This document shows, one piece after another, positions 49,883 through 58,459 of a DNA stretch of 64,000 nt (the stretch's first letter is position 1; each line of letters begins with the position of its first letter). Both the position numbers and the translations under genes were made by a program. The stretch is from Candidatus Thioglobus autotrophicus (GTDB taxonomy: Bacteria; Pseudomonadota; Gammaproteobacteria; PS1; Pseudothioglobaceae). The notes under the pieces were generated by a model that saw nothing but the letters and a program-made list of their open reading frames with translations, searched no databases and was not told where the DNA came from. The DNA is taken from the NCBI RefSeq assembly GCF_001293165.1, contig NZ_CP010552.1, positions 248,001 through 312,000 on the forward strand, written 5' to 3'.

Positions 49883-49970
49883 TGCACCCCCTTGCGGGGT
49901 GAAAATGACCTGCTTGGCATGCCAAAAACAAACAAAAACCCCTTTAAAACCTTGTTTTAAAGGGGTTTTT
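49883..49970 (+). terminator. Terminator of the nitroreductase gene
   Basis: Perfect 16-bp stem (AAAAACCCCTTTAAAA and its complement) with a 5-base loop and T-run at 49,935-49,970. A second hairpin CACCCC/GGGGTG sits just after the gene at about 49,885-49,901. The large one can also serve the minus strand. Confidence 0.88.
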
Positions 49971-50030
49971 AACGTTAATAATACTTAAAACTTCGCCCAA
50001 TCTAAAAATTTGTCAAATTTTCACAATAGG

Positions 50031-50261
50031 CTATTTCTCATCATTTTTCTGCTCAATTTCTCTTGCTGGGCAGCCATTATGCAATAGCCATTTATCTTCA
50101 TGTCCAATGGCTTTTGCAAAAGCAGGGATCTCACACTCTTTCGCTGTTTTTTCCTTAACAATCTCTTTATCTTGAGTGTCATCACTCAAACCAAAAACAG
50201 CAACTGCACCGAGTGCGATTAGCGCCCATGAAAGGGCAAATAAAGTTCGAATTCCTTTCAT
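50031..50261 (-). CDS. Small membrane-anchored protein of the AlsD-cytochrome operon
   Basis: 76 residues. An N-terminal hydrophobic anchor or signal (ALSWALIALGAVAVFGL) is followed by a charged stretch and two Cys (ECEIP near 43 and NGCPA near 64) in the exported part. The two Cys could form a disulfide or bind a cofactor. Last gene of the operon, 39 bases after the fusion gene, with a ribosome site AAGGAG. Family not recognised. Confidence 0.6.
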   Translation of the reverse strand: MKGIRTLFALSWALIALGAVAVFGLSDDTQDKEIVKEKTAKECEIPAFAKAIGHEDKWLLHNGCPAREIEQKNDEK

Positions 50262-50300
50262 TTTTTTCTCCTTACAATTCTCTTGTTTTTTATTTTACAG

Positions 50301-51383
50301 TTATTCCACTTTGAACGCAGCATGACACGCTAGACAGTTTCTCATTAATTTTCCTGTAAATTCTGCCAAGTCTGTAATATCATCCACATCATCTAAATCC
50401 ATTTCTTCTACGTTAATAATTAGTTCTTCAAACATCATGTGAGTTGGGCCACCAATACGCTCAAAAGATACCGGGGTTTTGTCTTTAACCGATTGTGGCG
50501 TTGCTCTTGCCATTCTATTACCAGAATAGCTCGCCGCCTTGATAATCATGTCTTTATCTTTTGTAGCAATACCTGTCATAATTTGCTGAATGCTGGTTAA
50601 CATCTGTCTCATTTCAGCAAGAAACTCAGCTTTTTCTGCTTCATCAAGGCCTAAACTATAGCGCTTATCATGGATTTTTACCATAGGAAGTTTTAACACT
50701 ACATTCATGCCTGAGTGTATTTCATCAACGTGAGCGCCAATATCATCAATGATTGCATGTAGATGCCAAGACTCGCCAGGGTGCGTATAAGTACCTTGAT
50801 CATCTGCTGAGTAAAAACCTACAATAGTTGCCGCTTGATGGCCCCTTGTTTCTTTTGTCATGTGGAACATTTTTTCCTTACTGCCATGACCTCCAAACTT
50901 TGGATTTTTTCCATTAATCACATGAATCTGTAAATCTTTAAACCTACCTTCTAGCAAAAATGGAAATGGCTTTTTAACGTCTAAACCCATCTCTTTTGCT
51001 TTTGAAAGAATGGCTTTAAACAAATCTTCTTTTGCTAAGGGTTTTTTAATCTTAGTGCTTTGCCATTTATCCACACTACTGGTTGCTAGCAATACTGCTT
51101 TTTCATGAGGCGGAATGGTATGGATTGAATTACCCATACCATCTTTACCGTAATCAAGATAAATCTTACCATTTAAAACCGTAATTTCACCAGCGCCGTC
51201 TTGTATAGCGCCAACTGCGTATGAGTTGTGTTTTGGAATGGCCATTTTTAAACCAACCACACCATCGGTGTTTTTCATATGGATCATTTTTTTATAATGA
51301 CCATAGCTTTTTACTTCAACTGCTTCAGCGGCGGCAATGCCACTTATAAGCAATGATAATAACAATAAAATAGATTTGTTCAT
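50301..51383 (-). CDS. Exported fusion: acetolactate-decarboxylase-like domain + cytochrome c'-like domain
   Basis: 360 residues. Signal peptide MNKSILLLLSLLISGIAAA. Residues 20-245 resemble alpha-acetolactate decarboxylase: GAIQDGAGEITVLNGKIYLD near 58-77, GHQAATIVGFYS near 181-192, and ESWHLHAIIDDIGAHVDEI with His207, His209 and His218 in the place of the family's zinc ligands (loop two residues shorter). Residues 250-360 look like a four-helix cytochrome c' domain ending in NCLACHAAFKV with the haem motif C350-x-x-C353-H354. Both would be periplasmic. A metal enzyme wired to a haem is the obvious reading; substrate and electron partner are unknown. Confidence 0.75.
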   Translation of the reverse strand: MNKSILLLLSLLISGIAAAEAVEVKSYGHYKKMIHMKNTDGVVGLKMAIPKHNSYAVGAIQDGAGEITVLNGKIYLDYGKDGMGNSIHTIPPHEKAVLLATSSVDKWQSTKIKKPLAKEDLFKAILSKAKEMGLDVKKPFPFLLEGRFKDLQIHVINGKNPKFGGHGSKEKMFHMTKETRGHQAATIVGFYSADDQGTYTHPGESWHLHAIIDDIGAHVDEIHSGMNVVLKLPMVKIHDKRYSLGLDEAEKAEFLAEMRQMLTSIQQIMTGIATKDKDMIIKAASYSGNRMARATPQSVKDKTPVSFERIGGPTHMMFEELIINVEEMDLDDVDDITDLAEFTGKLMRNCLACHAAFKVE

Positions 51384-51398
51384 TCCCTTATCCTTTTG

Positions 51399-52310
51399 TT
51401 AATAGTCAAATTCCATTTGCTCAAATACCCATTGGGCATTCTTGCCGGCAATGTCTTGATAGCCTGATAAAAAATGGAAATCACTTTGATCAATCTTACT
51501 TGCTTCAAGCATGTCACCATCATTTTCTAAAATATTGATAATTTTATCTTTTAAAAATTTAAGATATTGTTGTGTATTTTTTGTCGCTGTCGATAAATCA
51601 GACACCCGGCCATGACCAGGAACAATATGCTTAGGCTGAAAGCTCGCCATTTTTTCAAAAACATCAATCCAGCTTTGTGTATTTTTAGCAGGGCCGATGC
51701 CGAGCATTCTATCGTTAAAAACAATATCACCAGCAAACATCACACTTTGACTAGGCATATAAATAAAGATATCGCCCACCGTATGTGCAGCGCCAGCATG
51801 ATAAAGCTCTAATTTAATGCCGCCAATTTCAATGTTTTTCTGTGTATCAAACACTTCATCTGCAAACACAGGATTAGTGCCGTCTAGGCTCTCACCAATC
51901 AAACTGCCCAATCTTGTTAGGTGATAATCAGCTCTGACTTTTTGATCATTTTGAGTTTTCTTCGAAGCAACAATTCTAGCGCCTAATTTTTGGAAATAAT
52001 CATTACCCAACCAGCGATGATCTTGTCCGCCAGTATTGATCACAATTTTTATGGGTTTGTTTGTTAACGCCTGAACAGCCTGATGAATCTCTTGGGCGCC
52101 CAAATAGCTCGCACCTGAATCAATCACTACAACACCTTCATTGGTAATAATAACGCCGTGCGTTGAATTATTGCCAAAATTACTCGCTGAGCGCTGTGTA
52201 GTTTCACCCACTAAAGCATAAACATTGTCAGCCACTTTTTTCACTTCAAGTGAAGCGTATGACGCCACTGAGATAATTAACAAACTAAAAAGTAAAATCG
52301 ATTTTTTCAT
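51399..52310 (-). CDS. Exported MBL-fold protein with partial metal site
   Basis: About 303 residues, signal peptide from MKKSILLFSLLIISVASYA. Similar to quinoprotein-relay/SoxH-like metallohydrolases. The usual HxHxDH motif reads TGGQDH (numbering from 52,322: Thr97, Gly99, Asp101, His102), so both Zn1 histidines are lost; HTVGD (His180), AGD (Asp199) and PGHG (His237) remain, leaving a plausible Zn2 site. The start at 52,310 has GGGGAA before it; the ATG at 52,322 lies inside the upstream gene. It is 15 bases upstream of the fusion gene. Confidence 0.78.
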   Translation of the reverse strand: MKKSILLFSLLIISVASYASLEVKKVADNVYALVGETTQRSASNFGNNSTHGVIITNEGVVVIDSGASYLGAQEIHQAVQALTNKPIKIVINTGGQDHRWLGNDYFQKLGARIVASKKTQNDQKVRADYHLTRLGSLIGESLDGTNPVFADEVFDTQKNIEIGGIKLELYHAGAAHTVGDIFIYMPSQSVMFAGDIVFNDRMLGIGPAKNTQSWIDVFEKMASFQPKHIVPGHGRVSDLSTATKNTQQYLKFLKDKIINILENDGDMLEASKIDQSDFHFLSGYQDIAGKNAQWVFEQMEFDY

Positions 52311-52311
52311 A

Positions 52312-52932
52312 TCATTCCCCAAAAATTAGAAATTCTATTATGCCACCAAATGCCAAGTAGAGTAGTGCTAATATGGACAAAGTAAATATAGTTTTTTGCA
52401 CTAAATTTAGGATTTGGATTTTATCTCTACCTCTGCTCAAATCGCAAACCTCTCCAGGGCAATGCTTAACCTTTTCCTTATGAAAGAAGTTGTAAATTTT
52501 ACAGCCTGCACAAATACCAAATACCGCCTCAAAAAATAATAAACTCAAACATAAAGCACACGTTAGGATGTTAATTGGACCACGAATATCATTAACAACC
52601 ACCAAATAAAACATAATGGCTGCCAAGCTAAAGCCAATACCCCAGGCCCATCTTTTGGGTGCGGCGTCTGTGTATTCTGGTTTTTGGTTATTCACCATCC
52701 AACGCCCAATAACCATCGACGGCGCGTATTTTGGACTTAAAAAAATACGTATAAAAAAATCAAACAAAAATACCAATACTATCAGCTTAGTCGGCTCATT
52801 ATTACCGGTTAAAAAACCGTTCATAAACGCCATAAAAGCAAGCAAAAAGACAATGCCAGCTGCCGCCCTTACCTCACGTTCATTAAACATAAGCTCGTCA
52901 TAACCAGCTACTTTTTCACCAAATTTAATCAT
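52312..52932 (-). CDS. DUF4395 membrane protein
   Basis: 206 residues with about five membrane segments. Family hallmarks: YAPSMVIGRWMV, APKRWAWGIGFSLAAIMFY and CALCLSLLFFEAVFGICAGCKIYNFF. Four clustered Cys (CALC and CAGC) plus CPGEVC after it suggest metal or redox chemistry at the membrane; DUF4395 proteins are often near thiosulfate or sulfur-transfer genes. First gene of the operon; its stop TGA is directly followed by the MBL gene's start. Confidence 0.75.
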   Translation of the reverse strand: MIKFGEKVAGYDELMFNEREVRAAAGIVFLLAFMAFMNGFLTGNNEPTKLIVLVFLFDFFIRIFLSPKYAPSMVIGRWMVNNQKPEYTDAAPKRWAWGIGFSLAAIMFYLVVVNDIRGPINILTCALCLSLLFFEAVFGICAGCKIYNFFHKEKVKHCPGEVCDLSRGRDKIQILNLVQKTIFTLSILALLYLAFGGIIEFLIFGE

Positions 52933-52999: not shown

Positions 53000-54184
53000 T
53001 TAGACTACTTGCCCTGCTGCCCAGCCAGACGACCAGGCCCATTGGAAATTATAACCCCCAAGCCAACCAGTTACGTCAACCGTTTCGCCAATAAAATACA
53101 ACCCTGACTGCTTGTTTGATTCTAGCGTTTTAGAAGACAGTTCATCGGTATTCACACCACCCGTACACACCTCAGCTGTGCGTAATCCTTCAGTGCCACT
53201 AGGCACTAACAGCCAGTGATTTAAACGATAACCAAATGCTTTTAGATCGTGCTGTTTAATTTCACCCAGGGTGATATCGGCCAATGCTTTTGCACTCAAA
53301 GTATTGGCCAAGCGCTCAGCCAAGCGCTTTGGAAAAAATTCAGCCAGAATGGTTTTAAGCTCCGCCTTGCCACGTGACTGTTGTTTATTTAGCAAATATT
53401 CACTCGCATCTAAATCAGGCAAAAGGTTAATCTCAATAGCATCGCCCTTATTCCAGTAAGAAGATATTTGTAAAATAGCGGGACCACTTAAGCCTCGATG
53501 AGTAATCAGCAACGCCTCTCTAAAGCTAGCACCATTACAAGCAACCACTGCATCTAGTGAAAGACCAGAAAGGTCTTTAAAATAGCTATTAATATCATGT
53601 TGATGAAAAGTGAGTGGCACCAAGGCCGGCTTAAAGCCGACGAACTTAAGCCCAAATTGTTTGGCAATTTGCAGGCCAAAATCACTGGCACCCATTTTTG
53701 GAATACTAGGGCCGCCCGTGGCAATGACGAGTGCTTGCGTTTGAAAATCACCTTGGTTTGTTTGCACAACATAGTCTGATTCAAACGCAACTTGGCTGAT
53801 ATCGCATGCCAACATCATATCAACCTGCTGACACTCATCTAGCAACATTCTAAGCACGGCACCCGATTTTTGATCGCAAAATAATTGCCCCAAGGTTTTT
53901 TCTGTCCAACGCAAATGATGGCTTTCCAATAGAGCGATAAAATCCCATTGGGTATAGCGCGATAAAGCGGATTTACAAAAATGAGTGTTGTTTGAAATGT
54001 AGGCTTCGGGCTCAATATAGAGATTGGTAAAATTACATTTTCCACCACCAGAAATAAGAATTTTTTTGCCGGCTTTAATAGCCTTATCAAGCACGAGAAC
54101 TTTACGCCCACGTTGAGACGCTTGAGCAGCGCACATCAATCCTGCAGCACCAGCACCAACAATAATCACGTCGTATTGTTTCAA
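53000..54184 (-). CDS. HI0933/BaiN-family flavoprotein
   Basis: 394-residue NAD(P)/FAD-dependent oxidoreductase. GAGAAGLMCAAQASQRG and LISGGGKCNFTNLY at the N terminus, GGPSIPKMGASDFG mid-protein, and VDVTGWLGGYNFQWAWSSG at the end fit this family. Function is unknown in most bacteria. Its start overlaps the end of the hydrolase-TlpA gene by 4 bases. Confidence 0.85.
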   Translation of the reverse strand: MKQYDVIIVGAGAAGLMCAAQASQRGRKVLVLDKAIKAGKKILISGGGKCNFTNLYIEPEAYISNNTHFCKSALSRYTQWDFIALLESHHLRWTEKTLGQLFCDQKSGAVLRMLLDECQQVDMMLACDISQVAFESDYVVQTNQGDFQTQALVIATGGPSIPKMGASDFGLQIAKQFGLKFVGFKPALVPLTFHQHDINSYFKDLSGLSLDAVVACNGASFREALLITHRGLSGPAILQISSYWNKGDAIEINLLPDLDASEYLLNKQQSRGKAELKTILAEFFPKRLAERLANTLSAKALADITLGEIKQHDLKAFGYRLNHWLLVPSGTEGLRTAEVCTGGVNTDELSSKTLESNKQSGLYFIGETVDVTGWLGGYNFQWAWSSGWAAGQVV

Positions 54185-55425
54185 AAGAGTTTTTCAATGG
54201 TTTTAATAATCGCAGGAGAATCCCATTCTAGTGCACCGCGATAAGTGTAGCGAATGATGGCATTTTTATCCAGTATAAAGTTTGACGGATAGGCATACAC
54301 ACCCCAATCTTGGACGGCTTTGCCTTCATCGTCTAGTAGGATGGATAGATCAAATTTTACGCGTTTTTTAAAGTCGCTAATTTCGCGAGCTGACTCGCCC
54401 ACATTGACTGTAATTATTTCAAAATCTTGTTGTTTTAGTTTGTCACCGAGCCTAACTAAAGAAGGGATTTCTTTAATACAAGGTTTACACCAGCTTGCCC
54501 AAAAATTGAGCAAAATGACTTTATCTTTATAATCACTTAGCTTGACTATATTGCCATTTAAATCTTTTAGTTGCAATACAATGTTTTGCTTACCTTTATA
54601 AGTCTTGAGCATTGGCTCGCTAAAGTTAAGGCTGGATTTAGTGGATTTGCGTTTTGATAGTGTTTTTGGCGAAAGTGGAGTAACAGTTGAGAGTAAATTA
54701 GCTGCTTGGATGTAGATGTTGGCTAAATCTGCTTTTACTTTTAGATCTAGTTTGGTCAGATCTTCCTCATTGCGCATATAAAACCCACCACGAACGCCTT
54801 TTAATCGGTGCACAAATACTGAACTGCCGCCCAATTTTAGGGTATTCAAGATTTCTTTAGCACGGAAATATTTAGTGCTGTACTGAGTTAAGATCATATA
54901 AATGGGTAAATTACTGACTTTAGCAACATTCACATATTCTGCCTCGGTACCTAATGCAGGTGCGCCTTTGATTAGATGCGGAGAATGGAAAATATGGCCT
55001 TTTAGGTAAGCATCATCAGGATGTTTAATTTGCCACTGATACGCAGCTTTGAGGGCGAGCTGGGCGCCTCTACCTGAGCTAACAAAGAATAATTGTTTAA
55101 AGCCTTGGTCTTGCGTGAGGCTGATCAACTCTACGAGATCATCTATACTGAATTCGTTGATACTGCTGCGATTCTTTGGCACCATGTAGCTTGTGTGTAA
55201 ATCAAGTGCCCAAACGTCGTTCCCATCAAAAGCCAGCTGTTGCGCTGTTGGAATGTGGCCTTTGCCAAAACCACGCTCAGATGGAAGGTATAGATACAAG
55301 GTGTCGCCATCGGCTTTAAAAGTATCTGCTAGGATTACTTCGCCAGAGCTAAGCTCGATTTCTATTTTGTCATCAGCGATAACGATGGATGATAAAAACA
55401 AGATTGTGAGTATAAGCCACTTCAT
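54181..55425 (-). CDS. Exported hydrolase-like / TlpA thioredoxin fusion
   Basis: 414 residues. Signal peptide MKWLILTILFLSSIVIA. Residues 20-240 look like an alpha/beta-hydrolase fold (DGDTLYLYLPSERGFGKGH, then VSSGRGAQLALKAAY where GxSxG is expected; the nucleophile position appears to be Gly). Residues 270-414 are a TlpA/ResA domain: LNFWASWCKPCIKEIPSL, cis-Pro region YAYPSNFILDKN. A thioredoxin with a probably inactive hydrolase-like partner is unusual. Overlaps the flanking genes on both sides by 4 bases. Confidence 0.72.
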   Translation of the reverse strand: MKWLILTILFLSSIVIADDKIEIELSSGEVILADTFKADGDTLYLYLPSERGFGKGHIPTAQQLAFDGNDVWALDLHTSYMVPKNRSSINEFSIDDLVELISLTQDQGFKQLFFVSSGRGAQLALKAAYQWQIKHPDDAYLKGHIFHSPHLIKGAPALGTEAEYVNVAKVSNLPIYMILTQYSTKYFRAKEILNTLKLGGSSVFVHRLKGVRGGFYMRNEEDLTKLDLKVKADLANIYIQAANLLSTVTPLSPKTLSKRKSTKSSLNFSEPMLKTYKGKQNIVLQLKDLNGNIVKLSDYKDKVILLNFWASWCKPCIKEIPSLVRLGDKLKQQDFEIITVNVGESAREISDFKKRVKFDLSILLDDEGKAVQDWGVYAYPSNFILDKNAIIRYTYRGALEWDSPAIIKTIEKLF

Positions 55426-55676
55426 GGATAGTTATACATGTCCAAAATATAGTACAAAGTTACGCCTTCAGATGAGCGAGATGGGCCCAAAACTTTAGCA
55501 GCATACAAGTGATTAGCTGTGTCTGATTTTTCTATTGCTTGTTCGAGCGTTTCAACAATGTCGACATTATTTGCAGGCACACGCTCACGCTTGACACGAG
55601 GAATACGCACCACCGCATATTGTTCAGTAACCACCTTAATACTCGGATGAGGGTCTAGTGAATAGCCATTAATCAT
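55422..55676 (-). CDS. Small hypothetical protein, intact copy of a tandem pair
   Basis: 84 residues, start at MINGYSLDPHPSIKVVTEQYAVVRI. The first 32 codons are repeated in the upstream broken copy at 55,669-55,845, with 14 synonymous changes and 1 amino-acid change. After that it continues with VDIVETLEQAIEKSDTANHLYAAKVLGPSRSSEGVTLYYILDMY. No signal peptide. Its stop overlaps the fusion gene start by 4 bases. I do not recognise the family. Confidence 0.65.
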   Translation of the reverse strand: MINGYSLDPHPSIKVVTEQYAVVRIPRVKRERVPANNVDIVETLEQAIEKSDTANHLYAAKVLGPSRSSEGVTLYYILDMYNYP

Positions 55677-55845
55677 AAATTTCTCTATCAGTTTCAATTG
55701 AGGCAAAACCTCCCCATAGAGCAGGCGAGGAATTGCCTCTAGCAGACGCACGCTCACGCTTGACGCGAGGAATGCGCACCACGGCATATTGCTCGGTGAC
55801 AACCTTAATTTTGGGATGTGGATCTAGCGAGTAACCATTTATCAT
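55669..55845 (-). pseudogene. Truncated tandem copy of the small hypothetical gene
   Basis: Starts MINGYSLDPHPKIKVV at 55,845, only 2 bases after the stop of the ETHE1 gene. It matches the downstream copy for 32 codons, then changes to unrelated SARGNSSPALWGGFASIET and ends at 55,669. The new part is encoded by an inverted repeat (55,700-55,739). The first part kept the protein sequence through many silent changes, so it was once a working gene. It may still yield a 58-residue protein. Confidence 0.6.
55700..55739. repeat. Inverted repeat that ends the truncated gene copy
   Basis: GAGGCAAAACCTC (55,700-55,712) and GAGGAATTGCCTC (55,727-55,739) can pair around CCCATAGAGCAGGC. The central AGAGCAGGC recalls, loosely, the REP-like core elsewhere. 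It lies where the tandem copies lose similarity. Confidence 0.55.
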
Positions 55846-55847
55846 AT

Positions 55848-56552
55848 CTAATCGGTGATGATCTTTGATCCGCACACTTGGTTTGAAGGCACGGCGACAT
55901 GAATTTTTGCTGGAAGTGATAGCTTCATTGCGTCAACACGACGAACAAACTCGGCTTGATCAACGCCGCCGCCAATCATTTCATTAAAGGCTTTTTCTTC
56001 CCAAATTGAGCTAACTGTTCGCCCACCATAATCATGCGCTGGGTAAACCAGGGTTGCTTCTGGCAAAGTGAATAAATATTGGATGGAGTTATATAGGTTT
56101 TCAGCAGAGCCACCTTGGAAATCACAACGCCCGCAGCTTCTGATTAACAATGCATCTCCGGTGAACACTTTATCGTTAATAGCGTAAGACATACAGCCAC
56201 TGGTGTGGCCTGGGGTAGTCATGGCTTTAATTTTAAATTCGCCAAATTCTAAATACTCACCATCCTTAATTAAGATATCTGCGCAAGCCACAGGACTGGC
56301 ATCACCCAGAACAATTTGTGCTTGTTTGAACTGATCTTTTAGTGGGCATGAGCTGGTAATATGGTCTGCATGGATATGCGTTTCAATAATGTATTTAAGC
56401 GTTAGTCCAAGCTCTTCAATCAGGCCAATATCTCGCTGCTTGGTTTCGCTAACGGCGTCAATAATAACTGCTTCTTTGGTTTTAGAATCAGCTAATAAAT
56501 ACGTATATGTTGAACTTTCTTTTTCAAATAAAGGGCGGAAAATTAAACTCAT
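55848..56552 (-). CDS. Persulfide dioxygenase-like MBL protein (ETHE1 type)
   Basis: 234 residues. Metal motif [10 protein letters not shown], then [36 protein letters not shown] and YPAHDYGG: the DFQGG and PAHDY motifs are those of ETHE1/Blh persulfide dioxygenases, which oxidise glutathione persulfide to sulfite. Cytosolic. Overlaps yciI by 4 bases upstream. It fits sulfide oxidation with the SQR-like protein at 47.4 kb. Confidence 0.88.
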
Positions 56553-56848
56553 GGTAATACCTTTTTAAAGGGCTTAACGATCACACTAGCGTAAGCACCT
56601 GATGACATGTATGGATCAGCGTCTGCCCAGGCTTGTGCATCTGCCAAGCATTCAAACTCTGCAACAACCAGAGAGCCTGTAAAGCCTGCTTCGCCGGGCT
56701 CGTTGTTGTCGATGGCTGGGTGTGGACCTGCTAAGATCAAACGACCTTCGCTTTGTAAAAGCTTTAAGCGCTCAACATGTGCTGGGCGTACTGACATTCT
56801 TTTTTCTAATGAATTTTCTACATCTTGTGAAATAACAGCATATAGCAT
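56549..56848 (-). CDS. YciI family protein
   Basis: 99 residues of the YciI-like dimeric alpha/beta fold: [34 protein letters not shown] with the family His-Asp pair and [14 protein letters not shown]. Function unknown, possibly a small-molecule lyase. Sits 11 bases after dapB and overlaps the ETHE1 gene by 4 bases. Confidence 0.85.
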
Positions 56849-56859
56849 TTAAATTCTCC

Positions 56860-57603
<744 letters not shown>

Positions 57604-57628
57604 CTATTAATTAAAAATCAAGCTTAAA

Positions 57629-58459
57629 CTATTCTTGTCTAACCCTTAAATACACTGGATATTTGAAACTACCCTTTTTTGTGAAGCCGTAATATTTGAA
57701 TGTAATTTTACTACCAATAGCTGGTGGGTTTGATCTGTCTTTATCCTTAAAACCAGAGCCAATTTTCAATTTCTTGCCAGAATCTGTTTGGCACAACACC
57801 GATCCCATCATATTTTGGTATTTACCTTTTCCTGGCAAAATTTCTAATATGGTGCATTCGGTATCCAAGTATTGTTTAACCTTAAGCGCTGAGGATAGTC
57901 GCCCTGTTTGATATAAAGTGCTTGGGTTGCGCACCACAACCCCCTCGCCTTTGTGACTCGTTACCTCTGTTAGGAAGTTTTGCAGTTGTTGTTTACTTTG
58001 AATTTGTGTCTGCTTAAGCACTTTAAGGTGTGGCACAGAATGGCTAAATAAATGACTTTTTAAGACTGACAATCTTTCGAGTAGCCCGCCCTGCTGATTT
58101 GGCACTTCAAAAATATTATGGGTGATTAACTTCCAACGATCATCGGCATTTTTAGTACGGACAATTGAGCTGATATTTTCAAAATCGTTACGCTTGGTCC
58201 AAAGTTCGCCATCAATAGCAAACGGCGGATAATTTTTAATAAACCATTTCGGTGGCGTGAGTTTCACACCTCCTCGGGTAAGCAGCTCTTTGCCAGTCCA
58301 AAAGCCACGAATACCATCTAGTTTTTCACTCATCACCCAACCTACAACATCTTTGCTGTCATCGTAGGTTTTGAGTAAAAATAAATCGGGCTTAGTAGCT
58401 AAAGCCACTTGAACAAGCATTAAATAAGCGAAAACTAATTTAATGCTTGTTTTAAACAT
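57629..58459 (-). CDS. Exported ATP-dependent DNA ligase (Lig E type)
   Basis: 276 residues with signal peptide MFKTSIKLVFAYLMLVQVALA. Adenylation motif SEKLDGIRGFWTGKELLTRGG (Lys near 45), FAIDGELW, KGEGVVVRNP and LKVKQYLDTECTILE, followed by a short OB domain. This minimal ATP ligase group acts in the periplasm, perhaps during DNA uptake or in extracellular DNA. It is 6 bases from kdsA in the same direction. Confidence 0.9.
   Translation of the reverse strand: MFKTSIKLVFAYLMLVQVALATKPDLFLLKTYDDSKDVVGWVMSEKLDGIRGFWTGKELLTRGGVKLTPPKWFIKNYPPFAIDGELWTKRNDFENISSIVRTKNADDRWKLITHNIFEVPNQQGGLLERLSVLKSHLFSHSVPHLKVLKQTQIQSKQQLQNFLTEVTSHKGEGVVVRNPSTLYQTGRLSSALKVKQYLDTECTILEILPGKGKYQNMMGSVLCQTDSGKKLKIGSGFKDKDRSNPPAIGSKITFKYYGFTKKGSFKYPVYLRVRQE

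Follow-up and report, generated by a model that had tools for sequence, protein, structure and literature searches.

The four-gene locus and its features

We analyzed a stretch of 64,000 nucleotides from the genome of Candidatus Thioglobus autotrophicus (contig NZ_CP010552.1, forward-strand positions 248,001 to 312,000), hereafter called the window, whose own numbering is used throughout. Our focus was a cassette of four minus-strand genes, which encode, in this order, a DUF4395 membrane protein, a protein of the metallo-β-lactamase (MBL) fold, a fusion protein in which an acetolactate decarboxylase (ALDC)–like domain precedes a predicted class II c-type cytochrome, and a small two-cysteine protein. 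According to the list of open reading frames (ORFs) and the sequence, these genes are co-directional and close-packed, with gaps of 1 nt between the DUF4395 and MBL genes (counted from the ATG of the latter), 15 nt between the MBL and fusion genes, and 39 nt between the fusion and small-protein genes. The features of the locus are as follows.

52312-52932, minus strand: first gene of the cassette, a DUF4395 membrane protein with the cysteine motifs CxxC, CxxC, and CPGxxC (PF14340, E = 5.3e-28; cysteine block kept in relatives).
51399-52310, minus strand: SoxH-like, exported protein of the MBL fold that has TGGQDH where HxHxDH would be usual (PF00753, SoxH_rel_PQQ_2 below cut-off, and the motif); the ORF runs from a TTG to 52322, and the likelier ATG at 52310 was assumed as the start.
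50301-51383, minus strand: fusion protein of 360 residues, composed of a signal peptide, an ALDC-like domain, and a predicted class II cytochrome c (Pfam, predicted structure, recurrence, and selection).
50682-51314, minus strand: ALDC-like domain of the fusion, approximately residues 24-234, with a variant site comprising His154, His166, His201, His207, His209, His218, and Glu66 (domain model, Foldseek, and alignment).
50730-50765, minus strand: HLHAIIDDIGAH, residues 207-218, with three presumed metal ligands (aligned to canonical ALDCs, 17/17 sequences).
50304-50681, minus strand: predicted class II c-type cytochrome domain of the fusion, residues 235-360 (PF01322 at E ≤ 0.1 in 21 of 22 family members; paralog alignment).
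50322-50336, minus strand: CLACH heme c attachment motif, residues 350-354 (sequence).
50031-50261, minus strand: small protein, anchored or exported, that carries the two-cysteine motif CEIPAFAKAIGHEDKWLLHNGC (ORF and motif; joined to the end of DUF4395 in two other loci, L033 and L038).
49933-49971, minus strand: terminator-like stem-loop of 18 pairs at the end of the operon (stem search downstream of the small-protein gene).

An earlier, sequence-only reading of this DNA had described these four ORFs as a closely spaced, co-directional operon with an exported fusion protein, set in a sulfur oxidizer. All four ORFs were recovered with the same coordinates, the spacing is as tight as it had suggested, and the fusion starts with a signal peptide as judged by eye. 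The sulfur-oxidizer setting was borne out too, since the host genome, a single contig of 1.51 Mb, harbors three SoxY genes over cut-off. The same genome encodes cytochrome c assembly genes. A promoter search of the locus returned 10 matches versus 10.4 in shuffled sequences, i.e., no excess.

The two halves of the fusion protein

The N-terminal half of the fusion is predicted to have the ALDC fold, with sequence and modeled structure in agreement. Residues 51-228 score 34.4 bits with the Pfam family AAL_decarboxy (PF03306; E = 1.9e-8), above its gathering cut-off of 25. When a model of this domain alone (pLDDT 67.6 and pTM 0.68, built from 4 sequences) was searched with Foldseek, the 14 matches with E ≤ 0.001 were without exception ALDC or ALDC-like, all with E ≤ 4.7e-7. 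VIA Z scores ranged from 12.8 to 14.1 over 177 to 195 residues for ALDC entries and reached at most 8.3 for other folds, including PPC/AF0104-type proteins and PTD012. The full-length fusion model is poor (pLDDT 56.6, pTM 0.41), and its ten best Foldseek rows were also ALDC, nine of them at E ≤ 0.001. The fold on which the sequence-only reading had staked its proposal was therefore recovered.

PTD012 (1xcr), a weaker fold match with a Foldseek E of 3.7e-3 and a Z of 6.9, reportedly hydrolyzes esters. Its presence among the matches would suit a scenario in which the ALDC-like domain works, like PTD012 of the same fold group, as a metal-dependent hydrolase (an esterase or lactonase), and another step of the cassette falls to the cytochrome. 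We find this scenario improbable because the match is much weaker than those to ALDC, and no neighboring gene points to an ester or lactone substrate.

The active site was compared by aligning five variants (the window protein, the relatives at loci L016, L017, and L018, and a plasmid copy, P0001) with 12 canonical ALDCs (L015 and L054-L064). Like acetolactate decarboxylases (PF03306 and TIGR01252; solved structures 4bt2, 6inb, and 5xne), the variants share the HxH...H metal motif: His207, His209, and His218, which are exactly where they had been placed before, are present together with Glu66 in 17/17 sequences. From the alignment to canonical and solved ALDCs, these three histidines are presumed to converge in a metal site as in ALDC. 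Unlike the canonical enzymes, which carry an Arg at position 154 in 12/12 cases, all five variants have a His there, and they have two extra invariant residues, His166 and His201, found in none of the canonical sequences. In addition, a C-terminal tail with a conserved Glu, present in the 12 canonical ALDCs, is missing from the five variants. The aligned Arg was seen in the comparison with a solved ALDC; we take it to be Arg145 of the solved Brevibacillus enzyme and the tail Glu to be Glu253, presumably with catalytic roles. The fusion also falls far short of the NCBIfam equivalog TIGR01252, with 26.8 bits for a cut-off of 180.65. By these sequence criteria, the N-terminal half is a member of the ALDC superfamily without being an acetolactate decarboxylase. 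It appears to keep the fold and metal site of ALDC, with the remaining active site rebuilt.

The C-terminal half is predicted, from PF01322 matches across its family and from the paralog alignment, to be a class II c-type cytochrome, in line with the cytochrome c'-like half and C-terminal heme motif proposed earlier. While the best family member matches PF01322 with an E of 8.2e-7, the window domain gives 0.019 and 16.4 bits, which is under the gathering score of 26.5. As in class II cytochromes and cytochrome c', the CXXCH motif (CLACH) lies near the C-terminus, where a predicted helix bundle ends (helices 248-273, 277-293, 314-327, and 333-355 in the weak full-length model). Unlike in these proteins, the domain is placed behind an ALDC-like domain, and it has invariant Met258 and His315, which are conserved together with Arg259 and CXXCH over ten divergent paralogs. 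An open heme like that of cytochrome c' is thus not assured. Searches against solved structures with the whole fusion sequence or with a cytochrome profile gave nothing significant (for the profile, cytochrome c' had an E of 0.73 to 1.5, with unrelated proteins in the better rows). In a structure search, the cytochrome half retrieved generic helix bundles, with no cytochrome c' among 50 rows, a result that is uninformative either way. Stand-alone homologs of the cytochrome, mostly of ~140-190 residues, occur in relatives, and the fusion point lies near the expected start of the mature stand-alone protein (VKIHDKRY in the fusion versus IKNHDKRY in L019). In many loci from sulfur oxidizers (L024, L025, L028, L029, L030, L035, and L037), the cytochrome adjoins another cytochrome of class II or forms a single protein with it.

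The fusion recurs in one further genome, a metagenome-assembled genome (MAG) labeled Candidatus Thioglobus (L016), with 92% identity; G003 and L016 share one 3,527-base contig and therefore represent one genome. A comparison of the two fusion genomes shows purifying selection on both halves: the ratio of nonsynonymous to synonymous substitution (dN/dS, Nei-Gojobori) is 0.088 in the ALDC-like half and 0.050 in the cytochrome half. An assembly artifact was ruled out by the second genome and by selection on both halves. We then considered 24 loci identified by a peptide-pattern search of one-genome-per-species contigs, which needs exact short peptide matches, so that distant members may escape, and whose gene maps show ORFs of at least 60 aa. 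One of these loci contains the fusion (L016), one a cytochrome and ALDC-like pair (L017), one the ALDC-like domain alone (L018, a MAG labeled Desulfobacterales), and 21 the cytochrome only. In L017, the ALDC-like gene starts 4 nt after the cytochrome gene, and since this order reverses the domain order of the fusion, the same two modules are linked in two arrangements. The plasmid copy P0001, from Acinetobacter sp., is 32.6% identical and has no cytochrome among its annotated neighbors. The variants therefore amount to two fusions, one cytochrome/ALDC-like pair, one lone copy, and one plasmid copy.

ALDC is known as a non-redox enzyme family with a single reaction. An archaeal member has been treated as proton-consuming metabolism (PMC4836417). 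The N-terminal half could conceivably be an exported acetolactate decarboxylase or near relative that performs this same reaction, the cytochrome being a passenger joined by chance in an often-rearranged cassette. The Pfam score over the gathering cut-off and the common fold and metal ligands would fit this possibility, as would the reshuffling of the cassette among close relatives (see below) and the existence of exported canonical ALDCs. Indeed, 4/12 canonical sequences (L015, L061, L063, and L064) have a signal-like or lipobox N-terminus by eye; export is thus no rarity among ALDCs, which corrects the previous statement that normal ALDCs are soluble. We nevertheless regard it as rather unlikely in view of the His-for-Arg replacement, the lost Glu-bearing tail, the distance to the equivalog cut-off, the linkage to a cytochrome in two arrangements, and the low dN/dS in both halves.

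The variant has few copies in the genomes that we surveyed, which were a partial sample. The N-terminal half alone matched in 2/274 genomes of the class, i.e., the window genome (G000) and a canonical ALDC. Profile A2 matched in 1/398 genomes of the phylum, which was G000 itself, and in 2/192 genomes of the class to which the L018 genome belongs, i.e., that genome and a short piece with an internal stop. Profile A3 matched in 7/369 genomes of the class, G000 and six others, of which five have the canonical Arg (L066-L069 and L071) and one has neither Arg nor His by eye (L070). Within this sample, these low numbers rule out a widespread new ALDC subfamily. A viral origin was ruled out within our search, as 58 viral-contig stretches matched the peptide pattern and none encoded a relative. 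We found no description of an ALDC–cytochrome fusion, of the variant active site, or of the layered cassette in open-access papers, and all three are new to us. The fold, cytochrome class, and sulfur setting are each of a known kind.

The cassette in related genomes and its probable sulfur link

DUF4395 was detected in 26/57 genomes searched, and the cassette was compared across the 22 best DUF4395 loci (L077-L098), with L099-L106 excluded as weak or fragment matches. The compared stretches extend ~1.5 kb or less on each side, and absences at the cassette ends are therefore upper bounds. Of the 22 loci, 12 have the MBL gene and 15 the small protein, which in one of them is joined to DUF4395; seven have a cytochrome (leaving 15 without), and two have the ALDC-like domain. 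Two of the seven cytochromes belong to a more distant type and five to the type found in the window; the five include both fusions, in which the compared stretch ends before the cytochrome half. The constant part of the cassette is DUF4395 with the MBL and/or the small protein; the cytochrome is an optional extra, and the ALDC-like domain is in turn an addition to the cytochrome. The operon is thus not built around the fusion, as the sequence-only reading had it, and its proposal to look for the same gene order in relatives led to a mixed outcome: the cassette is common in relatives, but the fusion-bearing order is rare. An HI0933-like gene lies in 18/22 stretches and a nitroreductase gene in 10/22, and since both also flank the window cassette, these loci mostly represent one chromosomal site. 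In L033 (4806-5501) and L038 (4913-5698), the small two-cysteine protein is a C-terminal extension of DUF4395, and L096 looks alike, which suggests that these two proteins probably work together. A plasmid search with the small protein gave no match.

One relative, G008 (L076), has a stand-alone cytochrome and a different gene order. Its identity to the window is 98.6% at 55742-57811 and 87% at 53000-55677, and it falls to 75-84% within the cassette, a contrast between flank and cassette which indicates that the cassette was recently exchanged or reshuffled. Compared to G008, region 53000-57811 is a mosaic, as after recombination. Within this flank, two adjacent ORFs at 55422-55875 start near-identically (MINGYSLDPHP...VTEQYAVVRIPRVKRER) and the G008 match self-overlaps there; this is a small local duplication. 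The neighboring 54181-55425 encodes a 414-residue protein with a C-terminal TlpA/ResA-like thioredoxin domain, where the ~280 preceding residues have no Pfam match.

A Crp-type regulator was found within the stretch in 4/7 cytochrome-bearing loci versus 0/15 of the others. The chance of all four regulators falling among the seven is 0.0048, a value that is a guide only, given that related genomes and short stretches were compared. In G031, such a regulator lies ~3 kb from the cytochrome (L074). Together with the kinship to cytochrome c' (PF01322, with weak solved-structure matches), this distribution could speak for a periplasmic sensor or gas-binding protein, in keeping with the gas-sensing idea of the sequence-only reading, which had also considered detoxification. 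Its cytochrome, in the manner of cytochrome c', would bind nitric oxide or some other small molecule, and its ALDC-like domain would be a non-catalytic binder of ligand or metal. This is distinctly doubtful, however, as the regulator is lost from the window cassette (the best matches in its own genome are 24% and 22% identical), the invariant Met258 and His315 leave an open heme unassured, the chain has no signaling domain, and every aligned sequence keeps the metal ligands of the ALDC-like domain. As a separate observation, the Crp-type regulators beside the cytochrome display a YHC motif in their cyclic nucleotide monophosphate–binding domain in 12/12 sequences (L005:2275-2904, L016:62-682, L022:2813-3391, and nine more). 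Its placement presumably recalls the heme-binding Cys/His stretch of CooA.

The same genome encodes a DUF4395 paralog (30% identity over 127 columns; PF14340, E = 2.3e-15), which lies directly after dsrE, soxY, and soxZ on the same strand (L107:4185-4892, approximately C1:895185-895892). The SoxY and SoxZ beside it pass the NCBIfam equivalog cut-offs for true thiosulfate-oxidation carriers. Another SoxH-like MBL gene is found a few kb away, on the opposite strand. The best named relatives of the window MBL are, over nearly its full length, SoxH-like quinoprotein-relay hydrolases, with scores of 168.1 bits for TIGR04559 (cut-off 280) and 162.7 bits for TIGR04558 (cut-off 300). Active MBL-fold enzymes carry an HxHxDH metal motif. 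In contrast, TGGQDH or TGSQDH occupies this position in 14/14 distinct MBLs for which the motif search returned a match (the window protein and 13 others; MBL genes or pieces in L048, L049, L075, L079, L081, and L087 yielded none), and two of the usual metal histidines are therefore missing from these proteins. Another difference from the quinoprotein relay metallohydrolases, which are annotated as zinc enzymes, is that no pyrroloquinoline quinone (PQQ) dehydrogenase was found among the scanned neighbors of the window MBL. SoxH-like proteins have been proposed to release sulfur groups from SoxY (PMC10045233) or, with SoxYZ-like carriers, to assist PQQ dehydrogenases as partners in maturation or protection (PMC12997753). 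From the DUF4395 paralog and the SoxH kinship, we infer a sulfur role for the cassette, which is probably tied to sulfur oxidation.

A possible metal-plus-heme protein in sulfur handling

We tentatively propose, with a probability of about 0.4, that the fusion is an exported metal-plus-heme protein of a periplasmic, Sox-related sulfur-handling cassette, with a metal-centered reaction of the ALDC-like domain coupled to heme. DUF4395, the MBL, and the small protein would act in the periplasm on thiol- or sulfane-bound sulfur, whether carried by proteins or by small molecules, and the cytochrome would take electrons from this sulfur chemistry and pass them toward the respiratory chain. Least certain are the steps assigned to the ALDC-like domain. 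As a metal enzyme, it might use a small oxygenated acid or an organosulfur compound as substrate, rather than carry out ordinary acetolactate decarboxylation, and its product or bound intermediate might be coupled to the neighboring heme. A functional tie between the two domains is suggested because they are fused in two genomes, adjacent in L017, and, in the fusion, both under purifying selection.

Several findings weigh against this proposal. Since 2/5 variants, L018 and plasmid P0001, have no adjoining cytochrome, the ALDC-like domain can do without it. The L017 pair has no neighboring DUF4395, MBL, or small protein; the MBL relative of that genome is on another contig, and no DUF4395 or small protein was detected there. 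The window MBL is without part of its metal motif. While the cassette has a SoxH-like protein and a c-type cytochrome in common with the Sox thiosulfate-oxidation system, and the DUF4395 paralog comes right after soxYZ, family searches found no SoxYZ in the four genes of the window cassette. Finally, the full-length model (pLDDT 56.6) yields no interdomain geometry, and the reaction itself is hypothetical.

A bolder version, which we consider unlikely, is that the fusion represents a new kind of periplasmic redox metalloenzyme. In it, the ALDC fold with its enlarged set of histidines (154, 166, and 201 in addition to 207, 209, and 218) would hold possibly two metals, and an enediolate or thiolate intermediate bound to metal would give up its electrons directly to the heme c of the same chain, making the fusion an oxidative counterpart of acetolactate decarboxylase for sulfur or organosulfur oxidation.

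Our analysis delineates a compact cassette of DUF4395, MBL, and small protein in marine sulfur oxidizers, which its tie to SoxYZ makes testable. The literature on it is nearly nil: among open-access papers we found two that mention DUF4395 and none joining DUF4395 and "cytochrome." The existence of a conserved exported variant of ALDC, with a rebuilt site and linked to a cytochrome in two ways, suggests that this fold may have been recruited into electron-transfer chemistry.

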